DNA of 64,000 nucleotides from [Clostridium] celerecrescens 18A. Its GTDB lineage: Bacteria > Bacillota > Clostridia > Lachnospirales > Lachnospiraceae. The position numbers were made by a program, and so were the translations under genes. This document shows positions 25,760 through 45,051 of this stretch, one piece after another; within the stretch, counting starts at the first letter, position 1; every line of letters starts with the position of its first letter. The DNA lies in the NCBI RefSeq assembly GCF_002797975.1, contig NZ_PGET01000001.1:4948001-5012000 (forward strand), read 5' to 3'. The notes under the pieces were generated by a model that ran no database searches, had not been told where the DNA came from, and saw nothing but the letters and a program-made list of their open reading frames with translations.

Positions 25760-26365
25760 ACAGCTAAATGAGGAATTAATCAAAACAGAATTAAAAGATT
25801 TAGTTCGTTCCAGTGTGGAGGAAACTCTCAATACTCTGCTTGATAAAGAAGCAGATGAATTGGTCAACGCCGAAAAATCGAGCCTTCGAGGGAATGAAAG
25901 AGGACCGGGAAAGTTGGAAAAACCTCCTAATTGAACTAAAAAGCAGAGGTCTTAAAGGTGTCCGCTTAATTGTTGGGGACAAATACCTTGGAATGCTGGA
26001 ATTATTTCCACATGTGTTTCCATATACTAAATATCAGCGATGCACCGTACATTTCTATCGAAATATTTTTTCCGTTACCTCACGAAGCCGAATAAAATAT
26101 ATAGCTAAATGTAAAAGCAATCCATTCCCAGGAAAGTAAGGAAGCAGCACCCAAAAAGTGGTAAAAGAACTTCGAACAATCGTCTACGCCATGTGGCAGG
26201 GACCTGGGGGGGCTAAACTATATATGAATATGAAACATCTTGATCAAATGCAATCTGCTGAAGAAGTAGATCACATAGCAAGTTACCGGAATGCTACCAA
26301 ACGGTTATGGAACATGTCCATTTTATTTAATTGAATTTGCGAAATTAATTATACATATCAGAAAT

Positions 26366-29727: not shown

Positions 29728-31068
29728 TTACTGGATAATGCCGTTTACATCGACAACCCATACTTTGTCATTGGAATCCTTATAATCCTTAAATCCTGCT
29801 CCAAGTTCTGGCTTTGTAGCTGACTTGGAAGAGGAAGTTGCTTTTTGGAGGGAACCGCTGGCATTTACCAGATACTGATTGCCTTCAAAGGAAATAGGAG
29901 CAACCTTTAAGTCGGCATCAGCTTCTTTTCTTAAGCCATATTCATACAGGACGTTATCACGGACACCGTGAACTCCCTGTCCTTTGTTAGTACCTTCTGT
30001 CTGGAAGAACCATACCTGATCCTCATCCAGATCTTCATTGTAAACTGTCTGCTTACCGGTAGTCATAGCACCGTCAGTTCCAAAGTAGAAATTGGCGATT
30101 CCGCCGTCTTCTAAGTTGATAACTTTCAGTCCGGTCTGCATTTCTCCATTAGTATTGAATGCATATTTTTTGGAATCAATGGTAAATAATTCAAGACCTT
30201 TTGCTGCGCAGGTAGGAGCACCGTTCTTGAAATAGAAATTATAGGTCTCTCCCTCTTCGCTGAGTCCTTCAATACCTTCGATTACCTTCCAACCGTTAAC
30301 CCGTGCACCATTCTCTGGATCATAGTACTGGTATCCAGCTGCTGTAGTAGCATCTGCGGTTGCTTCGGATTCGGTTGCAGTTACAGGAAGCTTATACCAG
30401 CCTGTCTGCATGATTCCGCTTACAAAGGTATAATAGTTTCCATCGATCTTTTTGTCGACCTGGTTTTCTACCATACGGCCGCTCTTATCAAAATAGTACC
30501 AAGATTGGGTTTCATCAAGATCATCGGAATCATTTTCAAGCTGGATCCAGCCTGTTTTCATAACGCCGTCATTCTCTTGTCCTAAATAATAAATACTTCC
30601 TTCAATCTCAATCTTTCCGGTCTGCATTTCACCCTGGTCATTGAAGTAGTACAAATTATCGTTGATTTTCTGCCACTTGGAAACAACTTCCTTACCGTTT
30701 TTTCCATAGTAGTGCCATAAAAACTCAGGGGCATCAGCTGAATCCCAGAAGTTTTCATTGGTCATGGAAATCCATTTGTCAGAAACCCTTTTCCCGCTTT
30801 CATCTACGTAATATTCATCGATTTGTGAATTAATGGCGACATTGCCGTCCTCGTTTAAGTAGTACCAGTCTTCGCCGCGCTTTTTCCAGGAATCGGTTAC
30901 GTAGCTGTCATTATCTTCATAAAATTTCCAGCTTCCGTTTTCCTCAACCCAGCCGAGTACTTTAGCATAGGCGGTGGCTGCTGTGCTGATTAAGCCCAGC
31001 TCTGGAGCTGCGACGGTTAAAACACCGGCAGCGGATAATACAGCCATCAATTTTAAATGCTTTTTCAT
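29728..31068 (-). CDS. Secreted choline-binding-repeat protein (second copy)
   Basis: A 446-residue protein. The start is at 31068 (AAAGGAGAG upstream): MKKHLKLMAVLSAAGVLTVA opens a signal peptide. The longer frame to 31203 has no signal-like start and crosses the probable promoter. The mature part is CW_binding-type repeats, for example GWVEENGSWKFYEDN, WKKRGEDWYYLNEDGN and TGWYKLPV. It shares its opening layout with the 2356-4050 protein (GW-x-EENGSW, then W-x-K-x-G-x-x-W-(F/Y)YLNEDG). No enzymatic domain is seen. It probably binds phosphocholine-bearing wall polymers. Confidence 0.85.
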   Translation of the reverse strand: MKKHLKLMAVLSAAGVLTVAAPELGLISTAATAYAKVLGWVEENGSWKFYEDNDSYVTDSWKKRGEDWYYLNEDGNVAINSQIDEYYVDESGKRVSDKWISMTNENFWDSADAPEFLWHYYGKNGKEVVSKWQKINDNLYYFNDQGEMQTGKIEIEGSIYYLGQENDGVMKTGWIQLENDSDDLDETQSWYYFDKSGRMVENQVDKKIDGNYYTFVSGIMQTGWYKLPVTATESEATADATTAAGYQYYDPENGARVNGWKVIEGIEGLSEEGETYNFYFKNGAPTCAAKGLELFTIDSKKYAFNTNGEMQTGLKVINLEDGGIANFYFGTDGAMTTGKQTVYNEDLDEDQVWFFQTEGTNKGQGVHGVRDNVLYEYGLRKEADADLKVAPISFEGNQYLVNASGSLQKATSSSKSATKPELGAGFKDYKDSNDKVWVVDVNGIIQ

Positions 31069-31137
31069 AAATATGTTCTCTCCTTTTTTGCAATAAGTTT
31101 TATCGTGGCCGAAAATCCATAGTTGCATTACCCTGCG

Positions 31138-31143
31138 ATTATA
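31138..31143 (-). promoter_or_regulatory. Probable -10 box of the second choline-binding-repeat gene
   Basis: TATAAT on the minus strand, 70 bases before the start codon. The -35 region 17 bp upstream is poor. Confidence 0.4.
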
Positions 31144-31298
31144 CCGTATTCCGGAGTCCATTTGATAGTGTGGTTTGATGGCAGATATGGAAGGAGATAA
31201 CATAAAAAGAAAAAAGAAGATAAAACCAAGGGGTCAGGAGCAACCTAAAAGAAAATAAAGTAAGAAAACTTTAAATAGGAAAAAGGGGGGGTGTGTGG

Positions 31299-31304
31299 TA
31301 TAAT
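31299..31304 (+). promoter_or_regulatory. Probable -10 box for the second polysaccharide locus
   Basis: GGTATAATCT contains a perfect TATAAT. No good -35 is visible 16-18 bp upstream (G-run). If used, transcription would start about ten bases before the structured element at 31322, making it the 5' end of a 500-base leader. Confidence 0.45.
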
Positions 31305-31321
31305 CTACACGAAAGCAATGA

Positions 31322-31465
31322 GCAGTGCGAATTAGAGCAAGGAAAAATTTTCGTCGTGCTAGCACGTAAGAAAATTTTTCCATGTTCTAATTCATAGGGC
31401 GAATGCCCGTGAGCCTGTGAAGCCGCAGGGTTCACAGGCTGCACTGCGGACTAGAAGCTACGTGC
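31322..31465 (+). ncRNA. Candidate structured leader RNA: four-way junction with possible pseudoknot
   Basis: Closing stem P1: GCAGTGC (31322-31328) with GCACTGC (31441-31447). P2: a 24-position stem, 31329-31352 with 31370-31393, broken by one A-A mismatch and one G-T pair; its loop contains the palindrome CGTGCTAGCACG. P3: GGGC-GAAT-GCCC (31397-31408). P4: AGCCTGTGAA (31412-31421) with TTCACAGGCT (31431-31440). The loop segment GCACGTA (31362-31368) can also pair with TACGTGC (31459-31465). Nearly every base between the P1 arms is in a helix. No known RNA family recognised. A dispersed DNA repeat is the alternative. Confidence 0.6.
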
Positions 31466-31474
31466 ATACACTTT

Positions 31475-31690
31475 GCAAGCAAGAATCTGAGCTTCAGGCA
31501 AGAGTGTGGGCTTCAAGCAAGAGACTGGGCTTCAGGCAAGAGTCTGGCTCCATCTGAGCTTCAAGCAAGAGTCTGCCTCTAAGCAAGAGTGTGGGCTTCA
31601 AGCAAGAGTGTGGGCTTCAGGCAAGAATCTGGGCTCCAAGCAAGAATCAGGGCTCCAGGCAAAAATCTGGGCTCCGAGCAAGAGTCCTCG
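31475..31690 (+). repeat. 19-bp tandem repeats, about 10 degenerate copies
   Basis: The unit is GCTTCARGCAAGARTSTGG. Several copies are contiguous; two interruptions of different length occur near 31555 and 31585. The unit is not a multiple of three, so the overlapping short reading frames here are products of the repeat, not genes. Confidence 0.9.
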
Positions 31691-31720
31691 CTGCAATCCA
31701 CAACCCACACATCAATCTAC

Positions 31721-31765
31721 AACACAAGCAACACAAGCAACACAAGCAACACAAGCAACACAAGC
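31721..31765 (+). repeat. 9-bp tandem repeat, five perfect copies
   Basis: AACACAAGC repeated five times, then a partial AACAC, ending 65 bases before the start codon at 31836. It is perfect in sequence, so it is likely to vary in copy number by slippage. Confidence 0.95.
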
Positions 31766-31835
31766 AACACCCCACACTGCAGACAAAAGTTCTGCACAAC
31801 GAAAATAAACATCTCAAAAAGAGGAGAGAAGATCC

Positions 31836-33770
31836 ATGAGAATGAAAGTATCCAATTATATCTCCCAGAAGTTGGTTGATTCCGGGATTACACAGGTGTT
31901 TACGGTTACAGGCGGAGGAGCTATGCATTTAAACGACGCCCTGGGGCATCAGGAGGGAATGCACTGCTTATATAACCATCATGAGCAGGCATGTGCCATA
32001 GCGGCCGAATCCTATGCCAGAATCAAGGACCGAATTGCTGCTGTCTGCGTAACCACAGGCCCTGGGGGCACCAATGCCATTACCGGAGTGCTAGGAGGTT
32101 TTCTGGATTCTATTCCCATGTTAATTTTATCCGGTCAGGTGCGCTATGACACAACGGCCAGATGGTCAGGAGTCGGAATCAGAGCCATGGGAGATCAGGA
32201 ATTTGATATAACAAAAGCCATTGACTGTATGACAAAATACAGTGAGATGGTGATTGATCCCATGAGGATCCGCTACACTTTAGAAAAAGCCATTTATCTT
32301 GCCCTATCCGGCCGGCCCGGACCCACCTGGCTGGACATCCCCTTAAATGTCCAGGGTGCCTATATAGAAACAGAAGAGCTAATCGGCTTTTCCCCAGAAA
32401 ATTACGAGAATGGCGGAGATGGCTGGTCCGCTGAAACTAACGCAAAAATAAAACAGGATGACCCCGGCTGCGGAGAAAATCGTCAGATCCTTCCGGAAAA
32501 GGTGACAGAAGATGTTGCCAGGGCCATTTTAGAAAAAATAAAATCATCTTCCCGTCCGGTAATCAATGCAGGCAACGGAATCCGCATCGGTCAGGCCCAT
32601 GAAGTATTCAAGCGGGTCGTGGACAAGCTGGGAATCCCTGTAGTGACCGGCTGGAACAGCCAGGACTGCATAGAAGATGAGCATCCACTTTACACAGGGC
32701 GAGGCGGCGGAATGGGAGACCGTGCAGGGAACTTTGCCATTCAAAACAGCGATTTAGTCCTTTCTCTTGGAAGCCGCTTAAGCATCCGGCAGGTGGGGTA
32801 CAATTATACTACATGGGCCAGAGAAGCCTATGTGATTGTCAATGATATCGACCCTGAGGAATTGAAGAAACCATCCATTCACGCCGATATGAAGATCCAA
32901 GCCAATGTAAAGGATCTGCTTACAGCCTTAGAGGAACTACTGGATTCAGAATACAAAACTTCCAGTAATCACCCACTCTTTTCCGGTGGAAAAGGCCTTG
33001 ACGATATGACCTGGAATGAGACCTGCCGGATGTGGAAGGAAAAATATCCGGTCGTGCTTCCAAAGCACTACAGAAGCGGAGAAGATGAGGAAGTCAATGT
33101 TTATGCATTTATAAAGGAACTAAGTACCCGAGTCCCAGAGAACAGGGTCACTGTGGTGGGCAATGGATCTGCCTGCGTTGTGGGTGGACATGCATATATC
33201 ATTAAGAAGGGGCAGCGTTTCATATCCAACTCAGCAGTTGCTTCCATGGGCTATGATCTTCCGGCTGCCATTGGAGCAAGCGTTGCTGAACGGGGAGAGG
33301 ACGTCATTCTGGTTACAGGTGACGGAAGCATCCAGATGAACTTACAGGAGCTTCAGACCATCATCCATCACCATATGCCTGTTAAAATATTTCTTATTAA
33401 TAACGGAGGCTACCATTCCATCCGCCAGACCCAGAAGAATTTCTTCGGAGAACCATTAGTGGGAATCGGAGTAGACAGCCGGGATTTGAGCTTCCCTGAT
33501 ATGGAAAAACTTTCAGCAGCCTATGGCTATCCTTATGTCCGTGCATGCCATAACAGCCAGCTGAAACATGCAATTGAAACGGCGCTGGCCATGAAGGGAC
33601 CAGTCATCTGTGAGGTATTTGTAAGCCAGGACCAGAACTTTGAACCAAAGTCCTCGGCGAAACGCCTGCCGGATGGAACCCTTATTTCACCGCCGTTAGA
33701 GGATTTGTCTCCATTCCTTTCCGATGAAGAGATGGACCGGAATATGATCATCCCGAGGATCAGGGAATAG
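31836..33770 (+). CDS. Thiamine-diphosphate enzyme of the acetolactate synthase family
   Basis: A 644-residue protein (GAGGAGAG upstream), longer than IlvB's 570 or so. The N-terminal domain has VTGGGAMHLNDALG and the catalytic Glu in NHHEQACAIAAES (Glu about 50). The central domain follows. The C-terminal ThDP-binding motif is GDGSIQMN at about 493 through INNGGY. No regulatory small subunit and no other branched-chain amino-acid gene is nearby. It leads a run of sugar-modifying and glycosyltransferase genes. YerE, which adds a two-carbon unit from pyruvate to a keto-sugar in yersiniose synthesis, belongs to this family, so a similar role is plausible here. Ordinary acetolactate synthesis cannot be excluded. 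Confidence 0.8.
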   Translation: MRMKVSNYISQKLVDSGITQVFTVTGGGAMHLNDALGHQEGMHCLYNHHEQACAIAAESYARIKDRIAAVCVTTGPGGTNAITGVLGGFLDSIPMLILSGQVRYDTTARWSGVGIRAMGDQEFDITKAIDCMTKYSEMVIDPMRIRYTLEKAIYLALSGRPGPTWLDIPLNVQGAYIETEELIGFSPENYENGGDGWSAETNAKIKQDDPGCGENRQILPEKVTEDVARAILEKIKSSSRPVINAGNGIRIGQAHEVFKRVVDKLGIPVVTGWNSQDCIEDEHPLYTGRGGGMGDRAGNFAIQNSDLVLSLGSRLSIRQVGYNYTTWAREAYVIVNDIDPEELKKPSIHADMKIQANVKDLLTALEELLDSEYKTSSNHPLFSGGKGLDDMTWNETCRMWKEKYPVVLPKHYRSGEDEEVNVYAFIKELSTRVPENRVTVVGNGSACVVGGHAYIIKKGQRFISNSAVASMGYDLPAAIGASVAERGEDVILVTGDGSIQMNLQELQTIIHHHMPVKIFLINNGGYHSIRQTQKNFFGEPLVGIGVDSRDLSFPDMEKLSAAYGYPYVRACHNSQLKHAIETALAMKGPVICEVFVSQDQNFEPKSSAKRLPDGTLISPPLEDLSPFLSDEEMDRNMIIPRIRE

Positions 33771-42771: not shown

Positions 42772-45051
42772 ATGAGAAATGAATTTGACGATGAAGTAGG
42801 CCGCGAGGATACTAGGAAAGGAAAGCGCGGTTTCAACTCAAAACCAGATCCGTCTGATGAAGATTACTACCTGGATGATGATTATGAAAATTATCAGGAA
42901 CAGAATTACGGCAGGTCAAATCAGGAAGCAGACGGTTATGATTTACCCAAAAAGGCTAATAATGCGCCTGTAAGGAGAGGCGGGGCTGGGGAAAGAACCA
43001 GGAATTCTGACCGGTCCAGGCAATCCTCCGGTGACGGCCAGGCAGCCTTTCGAGGACAGTCCTCATCGGTCGCCGGTCCAGGTAAAAGTCAGGGAGCAGC
43101 GGGAAGCCGTGTTTCAGGAGACAGCCAAAGAGCAGCGGGAAACCGTGTTTCAGGAGACAGTCAAAGAGCAGCTGGAAACCGTGTTTCAGGAGACAGTCAA
43201 AGAGCAGCTGGAAACCGTGTTGCTTCAGGAGACAGCCCAAGAGCAGCTGGAAGCCGTGTTTCTTCAGGAGACAGCCAAAGAGCAGCAGTAAACCGTACTG
43301 CCGCAAGTATTAGCCAGGGAGCAGCGGTAAGCCGGACTGCTTCAGGAAATAGCCAGAGAACAGCAGGAGGCCGGGCTGTCTTAGAAAACGGCCAGGGAAC
43401 TGCAGGAAGCCGGACTTCACCGGGAAATGGCCAGAGTTCATCAAGAGGCCAGATTGTCATAGGAGACGGCGGTACAAAGCAGCAGCAGAGAGTACCGGCG
43501 CAGGATAAAAGTGTGGCTGCCAGCCGATCGGCGGCTCAGGCTGGAAAAAAGAGAAAAATCAGACGTATCATTCTTATGGTGGTTCTTGAAGTCTTTACAC
43601 TGGCAGGCATTTTCGCCTATGCTTATGTAGCCAGACTGATGGGATCCATCCAAAGACCAGATGATTTTAATAAAAACCAGGTAAGCAATGATATCTTATC
43701 TCCTATACAGAAACAGCATATGACCGGTTATCGTACCATAGCAATCTTTGGTCTTGACGGCCGTGATGGTAGTATCAATAAAGGAAGTAACTCTGATTTA
43801 ATTATGATTTGCAATATTAACAGAGATACGGGTGAGATCAGGCTTGTATCCGTTTACCGTGATACATACATGAGTATTGGAGAAGGATATTCTTATAACA
43901 AGATAAATGCTGCCTATGCCAATGGGGGAGCCGCTCAGGCACTGGCTGCCCTCAATCGGGACCTGGATCTGGATATCACGGAGTTCGTTACCTTTAACTG
44001 GAAATCGGTAGCTGACGGAATTAATATGCTGGGCGGTGTAGACATTGAAATTACCAAACCAGAATTTCGTTATATCAATTCCTTTATCACGGAAACCGTT
44101 AAGGAAACAGGCGTGCCTTCGGTTCATTTAAAGTCAGCAGGAATGAATCACTTAGATGGTGTTCAGGCAGTTGCCTATGCCAGACTGAGAAAAATGGATA
44201 CTGACTTTCAAAGAACAGAGCGTCAGCGCCTTGTTATTGAAAAAACCTTTGAAAAAGCAAAGAAGGCCGACCTTGGACTGCTTAACAGGATCTTGTTGAT
44301 GGAGGTAGACCAGATAGGATCAAACCTAACCTTTAGTGACTTTACGGAGCTGCTTCTGGATATCGGCAAGTATCATATCGGCAAAACAGGTGGTTTTCCA
44401 TTTACCCGCGGTGATATGACGGTAGGAAAAAGAGGAGACTGCGTAATCCCTCAGACCTTGGAATCCAATGTTACCGAACTTCATAAACTTCTTTTTGATA
44501 AGGAAGACTATGAGCCATCGGATATGGTTAAAAAAATAAGCGCTAAAATAGCCGCTGATACCGGCATGTATAAGCAAGGAAGCACCTCGAACAACAGCAC
44601 GAAGGACAATGATTCAAAGAAGGCCACAGAAGCGACGAAACCGGAGAAAACCACTGCTGCAGAAGAATCTTCCCCACAGGAAGGTTCAACAGGAGCTACG
44701 GATGGAAGCGGAAAACCAGGAAAGCCTACGGATTCCTCAGAAAGCAGTACGGGTGAGACCAAGGAAACCAGGCCTGGGGAATCAAAGCCTTCAGAAACAA
44801 CGACTGGATCAACGAAACCAGGGGAAACAAAGCCTTTGCCTTCAACCAGTGAACAGGAGACTACATCCCCTCATGGACCAGGACCAGGGAAGCCTTCGGA
44901 ACCTAACGAGACAACGGCTCCGCAGACAACCTCAGCAGGACCGGGCGGATCTGGCGGACCGGGGGAAACAACTTCATCCCATCCTTCCAACCCGACGACT
45001 GGCGGGAATTCGGATGTTCCGATTGTGGTTCAGCCCCCAACCAATAATTGA
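42772..45051 (+). CDS. LytR-CpsA-Psr (LCP) family glycopolymer ligase with repeat-rich N-terminal tail
   Basis: A 759-residue protein. Residues 1-260 are cytoplasmic and disordered, with about six 12-residue repeats of the form GNRVSGDSQRAA. A single membrane helix follows (about 265-285, IILMVVLEVFTLAGIF). The LCP domain (about 310-600) has SDLIMICNINRDTGEIRLVS, SVYRDTYM, YNKINAAYANGG and YARLRKMDTDFQRTERQR, with the arginines that bind the polyprenyl pyrophosphate. The last 140 residues are a Ser/Thr/Pro/Gly-rich wall-spanning tail. LCP enzymes attach glycopolymers to peptidoglycan, so this probably anchors the polysaccharide made by the genes upstream. The N-terminal tail is unusually long. 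Confidence 0.9.
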   Translation: MRNEFDDEVGREDTRKGKRGFNSKPDPSDEDYYLDDDYENYQEQNYGRSNQEADGYDLPKKANNAPVRRGGAGERTRNSDRSRQSSGDGQAAFRGQSSSVAGPGKSQGAAGSRVSGDSQRAAGNRVSGDSQRAAGNRVSGDSQRAAGNRVASGDSPRAAGSRVSSGDSQRAAVNRTAASISQGAAVSRTASGNSQRTAGGRAVLENGQGTAGSRTSPGNGQSSSRGQIVIGDGGTKQQQRVPAQDKSVAASRSAAQAGKKRKIRRIILMVVLEVFTLAGIFAYAYVARLMGSIQRPDDFNKNQVSNDILSPIQKQHMTGYRTIAIFGLDGRDGSINKGSNSDLIMICNINRDTGEIRLVSVYRDTYMSIGEGYSYNKINAAYANGGAAQALAALNRDLDLDITEFVTFNWKSVADGINMLGGVDIEITKPEFRYINSFITETVKETGVPSVHLKSAGMNHLDGVQAVAYARLRKMDTDFQRTERQRLVIEKTFEKAKKADLGLLNRILLMEVDQIGSNLTFSDFTELLLDIGKYHIGKTGGFPFTRGDMTVGKRGDCVIPQTLESNVTELHKLLFDKEDYEPSDMVKKISAKIAADTGMYKQGSTSNNSTKDNDSKKATEATKPEKTTAAEESSPQEGSTGATDGSGKPGKPTDSSESSTGETKETRPGESKPSETTTGSTKPGETKPLPSTSEQETTSPHGPGPGKPSEPNETTAPQTTSAGPGGSGGPGETTSSHPSNPTTGGNSDVPIVVQPPTNN
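43096..43292 (+). repeat. 36-bp tandem repeat inside the LCP gene
   Basis: About five to six copies of a 36-bp unit encoding GNRVSGDSQRAA. The middle copies are nearly identical, later copies carry an extra codon. Being a multiple of three, copy-number change would keep the frame. Confidence 0.85.

Follow-up and report, generated by a model that had tools for sequence, protein, structure and literature searches.

A covarying four-way-junction element absent from Rfam 15 and dispersed in many copies among Clostridia

Closest described repeats

ERIC/IRU elements are described as 127-bp intergenic repeats of enterobacteria that are co-transcribed and have an orientation-dependent effect on mRNA stability (PMC2229807, PMC3049150). 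The element analysed here, from a polysaccharide locus of [Clostridium] celerecrescens 18A, is similar to them in length and in its intergenic position, a resemblance in kind only (sequence relation was compared through Rfam), and it differs from these repeats of another phylum by its four-way junction, its free arms, its strong covariation and a left edge that tends to lie at a TATAAT-like box or a stop codon. For the pneumococcus, also a Firmicute, BOX, RUP and SPRITE are reported as small interspersed repeats with extensive secondary structure that are commoner between convergent genes (PMC3049150), whereas the clostridial element lies mostly in sense orientation between co-directional genes or behind promoter-like boxes.

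REP/REPIN sequences are short structured non-autonomous repeats located mostly downstream of coding regions (PMC3733652). As compared to the REP/REPIN-RAYT system, the element is longer (~140 nt, not a 20–40-bp palindrome) and its tails have no fixed GTAG or CGTC tag. A Y1 transposase flanked by the element, the mark of a REP/RAYT or IS200/IS605 derivative, was not seen: the mobiliser search, which covered Y1 transposases, found none in the own genome (G000) or in G007, both copy-rich, and the element is absent from 30 of the Y1 loci found. A Y1 (IS200/IS605, RAYT) mobiliser was rejected on these grounds, as was carriage by plasmid or phage, there being no match in the plasmid and phage collections. 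IS200/IS605-type elements insert 3' of a short fixed AT-rich target, strand-specifically and without duplication. Four loci described below resemble insertions of this type, but the targets of the element vary.

MRSC motifs (mobile/repeat sequence candidates, Breaker laboratory) are presented as multi-copy, covarying, possibly structured DNA, often inconsistent in orientation and often near transposase or integrase genes, and the survey counts 250 such candidates (PMC11109978). The clostridial element is likewise multi-copy and strongly covarying. MRSC-65-2, which the survey describes as one long stem carrying UYCCGG repeats and occurring in diverse phyla (PMC11109978), differs by that description from the clostridial element, which is a four-way junction matched here only in Clostridia and in consistent orientation; the element may be identical to an unnamed one of the 250 candidates. 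Its nearest counterparts in kind are ERIC, BOX and other small structured repeats that enter mRNA, and the MRSC category; it is assigned to none of the named families. The literature searched, supplementary motif lists of the two nearest surveys excepted, contains no description of the element, and the family is apparently undescribed.

Fold, copies and covariation

The window is the whole stretch of DNA that was analysed (64,000 nucleotides; contig NZ_PGET01000001.1, positions 4,948,001 to 5,012,000), and the element and its leader are given on its forward strand. Fold prediction for 31322–31447 gives a four-way junction with an MFE of -77.8, as compared to a mean of -45.2 +/- 3.6 for 200 dinucleotide shuffles of the same stretch (z -9.0, 0 of 200 as low). 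The closing stem P1 pairs GCAGTGC (31322–31328) with GCACTGC (31441–31447). The long stem P2 (5' arm 31329–31352, 3' arm 31370–31393) has 24 positions with 92% complementarity between the arms, and its tip (31353–31369) contains a conserved internal loop and an apical mini-stem (31355–31358 with 31363–31366). It is followed by the block with the highest sequence conservation in alignments A1 and A4 (31394–31411), which consists of a linker ATA, the P3 hairpin GGGC(GAAT)GCCC (31397–31400 with 31405–31408) and a linker GTG. The P4 hairpin (31412–31440) has a 13-position stem (31412–31424 with 31428–31440: 10 perfect pairs, one mismatch and two more pairs) and a 3-nt loop. According to the information content per position in 90 copies, conservation extends leftwards some 16 bases beyond GCAATGAG, covering the left tail CTACACGAAAGCAATGA (31305–31321; family consensus TNCRCGWARGCAATGA), and on the right it stops abruptly at GGAC, with the end of the right tail GGACT (31448–31452).

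The closing stem at these coordinates, the long stem of 24 positions and the stem with 10 perfect pairs had been named in the preliminary description, and both letters and fold agree with it. Three of the four helices that it nested inside the closing stem stand, and the fourth is the apical part of P2. The 12-bp palindrome at the tip and the complementarity of 31362–31368 to 31459–31465 exist as well, but the pseudoknot or switch proposed from them is unsupported, because 31459–31465 lies outside the conserved unit and its letters differ in the orthologues of three other species (G019, G020 and G005).

Using Rfam 15, we found 0 matches above the gathering threshold in the window and, at E up to 10, only three sub-threshold, irrelevant ones; among 20 family loci only rRNA and tRNA were matched, the element itself being unmatched. 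This is a real, covarying structured element absent from Rfam 15. An encoded peptide was considered and rejected (an open frame crosses many copies, but 3- versus 4-nt P3 loops shift the frame). The stability of the P3 mini-hairpin was likewise dropped as proof of DNA or RNA: the GAA (31/78) and GAAT (24/78) loops discriminate neither, since the stabilities of such mini-hairpin loops favour DNA and RNA alike.

A DNA search of the own genome identified 15 further copies of most of the element's length (75–85% identical) together with partial ones. The covariance model R1, built from 17 own-genome copies (alignment A1), recovers 20 full-length copies there, i.e. the 17 training copies and 3 new ones. 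These copies agree in both tails (GGACT on the right), in the P2 tip and in the block ATA-GGGCGAATGCCC-GTG; the P2 and P4 arms diverge widely yet remain complementary, and in the copy at 1776294 P1 is replaced by GCCATGG/CCATGGC. We note that the tip of the long hairpin is inverted in one copy (G000:C1:4334251-4334388, L040) and perfectly palindromic in another (G000:C1:4947582-4947719, L041), as if by template switching across the hairpin during replication. Partial tandem duplications of the 3' half of the element are also recurrent, often starting near a loop or apex; a partial second copy of this half lies directly behind the element in L090, L093–L096, L100, L109, L111, L112, L116 and L197.

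Beyond the own genome, the element family was matched in 25 of 25 genomes of the genus Lacrimispora. Counting reverse matches to the palindromic stem, there are at least 37 matches in each of seven copy-rich genomes (G000, G005, G007, G008, G017, G019 and G020), 7 in G018 and 1–4 in each of the other 17. Matches were found in at least 112 of 299 genomes of a family-wide sample (each genome from another genus), at least 126 of 392 genomes of an order-wide sample (model R2; at least 33 outside the own family), at least 18 of 291 genomes of a class-wide sample (at least 8 outside the order) and at least 5 of 398 genomes of a phylum-wide sample, where all five matched genomes belong to the own family. 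Searches of more than 40 genomes scored 8–11 candidates per genome, which makes these counts lower bounds. A pattern scan of named genomes returned 27 stretches, including ones from Lacrimispora celerecrescens, Hungatella and Clostridium fessum, mostly Lachnospiraceae.

Judged from the alignments, covariation is overwhelming across the family and is present also among the orthologues of the window copy. The own-genome copies (A1) have 116 cells changed on both sides of a pair versus 32.3 after shuffling (0/500 shuffles reach it), and 92.2% of their cells are paired versus 37.5–51.5% after sliding by 1–3 columns. The 70 family members have 1041 both-sided cells versus 274.9 shuffled (0/500); 24 of 24 P2 pairs and 13 of 13 P4 pairs are changed on both sides, with 76.3% of P4 cells paired. 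P1 occurs in other copies as the compensatory variants GCCATGG/CCATGGC and GCCGTGC/GCACGGC, and, by a script reading, 80 of 90 copies carry an apical GC(NN)GC at the P2 tip, 51 of them as GCTTGC. Among the seven window-copy orthologues, 7 pairs show double changes (11 both-sided cells versus 3.4 shuffled, 0/500), with one of five measures, pair types, matched by 8/500 shuffles; at the base of P3, which is otherwise fixed, the orthologues of G007 and G008 have A-U for G-C. These shuffle controls leave the relatedness of the copies in place, and alignments A3, A4 and A5 are CM-fitted and lean towards structure (A1 and A6 were made with MAFFT).

Mismatches in P2 bear on which strand is selected. 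With the arms paired by a scheme that scores all mismatches alike (9 sequences with no anchors or pairing were dropped), there are 55 G-U versus 14 A-C mismatches in 64 family loci (a weaker 29 versus 11 when counted by sequence, p 0.006) and 21 G-U versus 0 A-C in 19 genus loci. Because G-U exceeds A-C in both sets, selection seems, on sequence grounds, to act on the sense strand as a single strand (RNA or strand-specific ssDNA) in most of the family; part of the excess could come from a mutational asymmetry of transcribed DNA. The 18 own-genome copies have 7 G-U and 9 A-C mismatches and no G-U excess, i.e. recent own-genome copies show no sign of sense-strand selection.

Landing sites at the window locus and elsewhere

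At the polysaccharide locus the element follows a -10 box TATAAT (31299–31304) and precedes, as its first gene, a TPP-dependent enzyme gene (31836–33770, ATG at 31836) with TPP domains, whose product is acetolactate-synthase-like, below every curated cut-off shown; both the box and the start codon were confirmed where they had been reported. Six other copy-rich species (G005, G007, G008, G017, G019 and G020) have a copy at the same place. Five genomes shown (G018, G022, G023, G001 and G011) have no element and retain the promoter box TGGTATAATC with a short leader directly after it. Since the box is kept in these element-free relatives, the element entered directly behind a pre-existing -10 box, and it is expected, from its place behind this promoter, to form the 5' start of the mRNA, in keeping with the 5'-end position suggested earlier.

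Two tandem arrays follow outside the conserved unit, one of 19-bp units (31476–31686, 11.6 copies) and one of 9-bp units (31720–31770, 5.7 copies); both are lineage-specific, and the arrays (31476–31770) are missing from the orthologous leaders of G019, G020 and G005, which are short. The leaders of G008 (L122) and G007 (L123) orthologous to 31453–31835 contain other arrays with units from the 3' end of the element (by eye ~140 bp and ~40 bp), and leader length behind this element is hypervariable between close species. Other features observed in the window include the divergent neighbour of the element (29728–31203; a protein with choline-binding-type repeats), a Mutator-family transposase gene (PF00872; 24451–25647), a shorter ORF in the opposite direction that by eye resembles a fragment of a related transposase (25813–26139), and an array of 36–39-bp tandem repeats with up to about nine units (43079–43470).

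For position and orientation we used 90 copies, i.e. 70 matches (the best-scoring family loci and one weak 54-bit match, not a random sample) and 20 own-genome copies, with plain ORFs as gene calls. Sense genes are found on both sides in 57 of 90 copies, only downstream in 16, only upstream in 9 and on neither side in 7, with no downstream ORF in 1. Between co-directional genes, 57 copies are sense and 7 antisense (p 8e-11). The left edge carries a TATAAT-like box in 47 copies, a sense stop in 44 (a count raised by chance ORFs and by stop codons that belong to the left end of the element itself), a terminator by script in 5 and a tRNA-like end in 2, with at least one of these in 84 of 90; the reverse-side control gives 6 boxes, 22 stops and 1 terminator. 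According to Rfam, a tRNA lies directly upstream of the element in L190 and L197 and a 5S rRNA in L198 and L200, and there is no Rfam tRNA at L174, which the left-edge count had scored as tRNA-like. In L198 and L200 (same class, other family) the element begins within about 15 bases of the end of the 5S rRNA gene, and in L197, from a distant relative, 1–2 bases after the tRNA gene; at L197 1480–1720 the right flank carries the inverse complement of the tRNA end and P1 seems, by eye, to extend into the tRNA gene.

Three further sites show empty, filled or decayed states. At trpS, 17 genus genomes have TTGACA-17-TACAAT and a short leader with no element, and in the seven copy-rich species the element lies behind TATAAT in the same promoter, so that here too it went in directly behind a promoter already present; the trpS leaders L279 (G007) and L280 (G008) have P4 swapped for a much longer hairpin-like stretch and the rest of the element kept. 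Between tkt and glk, G000, G007 and G008 carry the element behind the stop codon of the transketolase gene, decayed remnants are found in G005, G017, G019 and G020 (4 of 7 copy-rich species), and the site is empty in 18 genus genomes, 15 of them with TTATAAT at the stop. At rplQ, 15 outgroup alignments stop at the last base of TATAAT in the stop codon region and one stops a base earlier, the empty-site sequence itself being seen in G010 only; in the G017 copy P4 and the P1 3' strand are gone. Since a promoter-like TTGACG-18-TATAAT lies between the rplQ element and the next gene, the nearest promoter of that gene gives it a leader without the element. A terminator behind this copy is visible by eye (the terminator scan finds 0 in L042 1300–1750) and is weaker evidence for that reason; the reading of the copy as part of an rplQ 3' UTR draws on the stop, the downstream promoter-like site and this visual terminator.

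At the four empty-site loci there is no clear target-site duplication and the left TATAAT pre-exists; some own-genome copies have TATAAT-like letters after the right end. Five sites are occupied in two genera each: the positions behind recO, groEL, rplQ and ilvC, and the gap from a CdaR-like gene to ftsE. Their neighbour proteins match (at rplQ only on the upstream side), and these are either very old copies or preferred sites. Both fates are seen, with retention at the window locus (7 of 7 copy-rich species) and decay at tkt-glk, and decay there and at rplQ in G017 fits an element that is non-essential at each site.

Competing readings and what the element may mean

We consider it probable that the feature belongs, as one copy among many, to a family of structured repeats of Clostridia that is dispersed, non-autonomous and proliferating and acts as a single strand. 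The element is ~140 nt long, with a four-way junction, nearly free arms and only a few letters fixed in its loops, linkers and tails, and relatives compared at four loci lack it but retain the TATAAT-like or stop-codon sequence that lies directly 5' of it elsewhere. Such an element would spread by a putative enzyme that recognises the folded single strand (RNA, or ssDNA of the non-template strand) and attaches it downstream of AT-rich boxes, which are often -10 boxes of promoters, stop codons or U-tracts. At the polysaccharide locus it would have landed between the -10 box and the leader, the mRNA should then begin with the folded element, and this 5' end probably alters mRNA stability or processing rather than sensing a ligand. 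A bolder version, which we offer only tentatively, is a promoter-seeking mobile element whose folded strand docks along transcription behind -10 boxes, stops and U-tracts, installing the same junction RNA at transcript boundaries; the host would have recruited old sites as a stability or processing module, and the predicted enzyme would read the fold and not the sequence.

The element is not a riboswitch-like leader class, given that a ribosomal operon has a copy behind it and that some copies have decayed. A regulator confined to 5' UTRs was rejected for a similar reason (copies behind other gene ends, and decayed copies), and placement is not consistently in 5' UTRs ahead of functionally related genes but extends to stops, terminators, RNA genes and convergent genes. 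The control of such loci by a dedicated leader, as first proposed, does not survive this spread of sites: copies of the element stand behind stop codons, terminators and the genes for tRNA and 5S rRNA as well as ahead of unrelated genes, the copy at the polysaccharide locus came in behind an older promoter, and the one at tkt-glk has decayed in four of seven species. A broader cis-regulatory RNA class (leader, protein-binding or processing) used at many operons, whose dispersal enlarged a regulon, agrees with copies that are sense to transcription, with the expected mRNA 5' end at the window locus and trpS, with the double changes among window-copy orthologues and with the surplus of sense-strand G-U mismatches seen in family and genus, and the five sites shared by two genera with conserved neighbours make long-term host use possible. 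We nevertheless regard it as unlikely, given that downstream genes have no common function on ORF inspection, 9 of 90 copies precede convergent genes, the rplQ copy is separated from the next gene by a promoter-like site, copies stand after terminators, tRNA and 5S rRNA genes, the tkt-glk copies decay, and 17 genus genomes have 1–4 matches and one has 7 versus at least 37 in seven.

The strong orientation bias, the conserved loops, linkers and tails, the lack of a clear duplication at four empty sites and the excess of G-U over A-C in family and genus all speak against a classical dsDNA MITE moved by a resident IS transposase, with covariation arising from hairpin correction (template switching), which we judge rather improbable. 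Short non-autonomous copies are indeed scattered through the genomes and relatives have empty sites, the copies are imperfectly palindromic with partial ones among them, the P2 tips inverted at 4334251 and perfectly palindromic at 4947582 are what template switching would give, and own-genome copies have no G-U excess. Sequence-fixed terminal inverted repeats shared with an IS were not found, the closing stem varying with compensation; on the IS side this comparison, like the transposase search, covered only Y1 families. The near-identical copies in both orientations with no covariation, by which the preliminary description would have recognised a MITE-like repeat, are not what the genomes contain, the copies being 75–85% alike, covarying and mostly sense. 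A chance or purely local structure, e.g. a terminator or leader of the polysaccharide locus, has the local context in its favour and is refuted by the 20 copies, together with the z of -9.0 and the 0/500 shuffles for both-sided changes, so that it can practically be discarded.

Taken as a mobile structured repeat acting as a single strand, the family makes it testable whether a folded single strand can be mobile, given how its copies covary, how they are oriented and where they land. Within one gut-associated family, at least 112 of the 299 genera sampled carry this element, which is absent from Rfam 15. In housekeeping genes such as trpS and in a surface-polymer locus it should replace the bases with which the transcript starts, and the empty and filled sites in close relatives form a natural experiment on structured 5' ends and expression.
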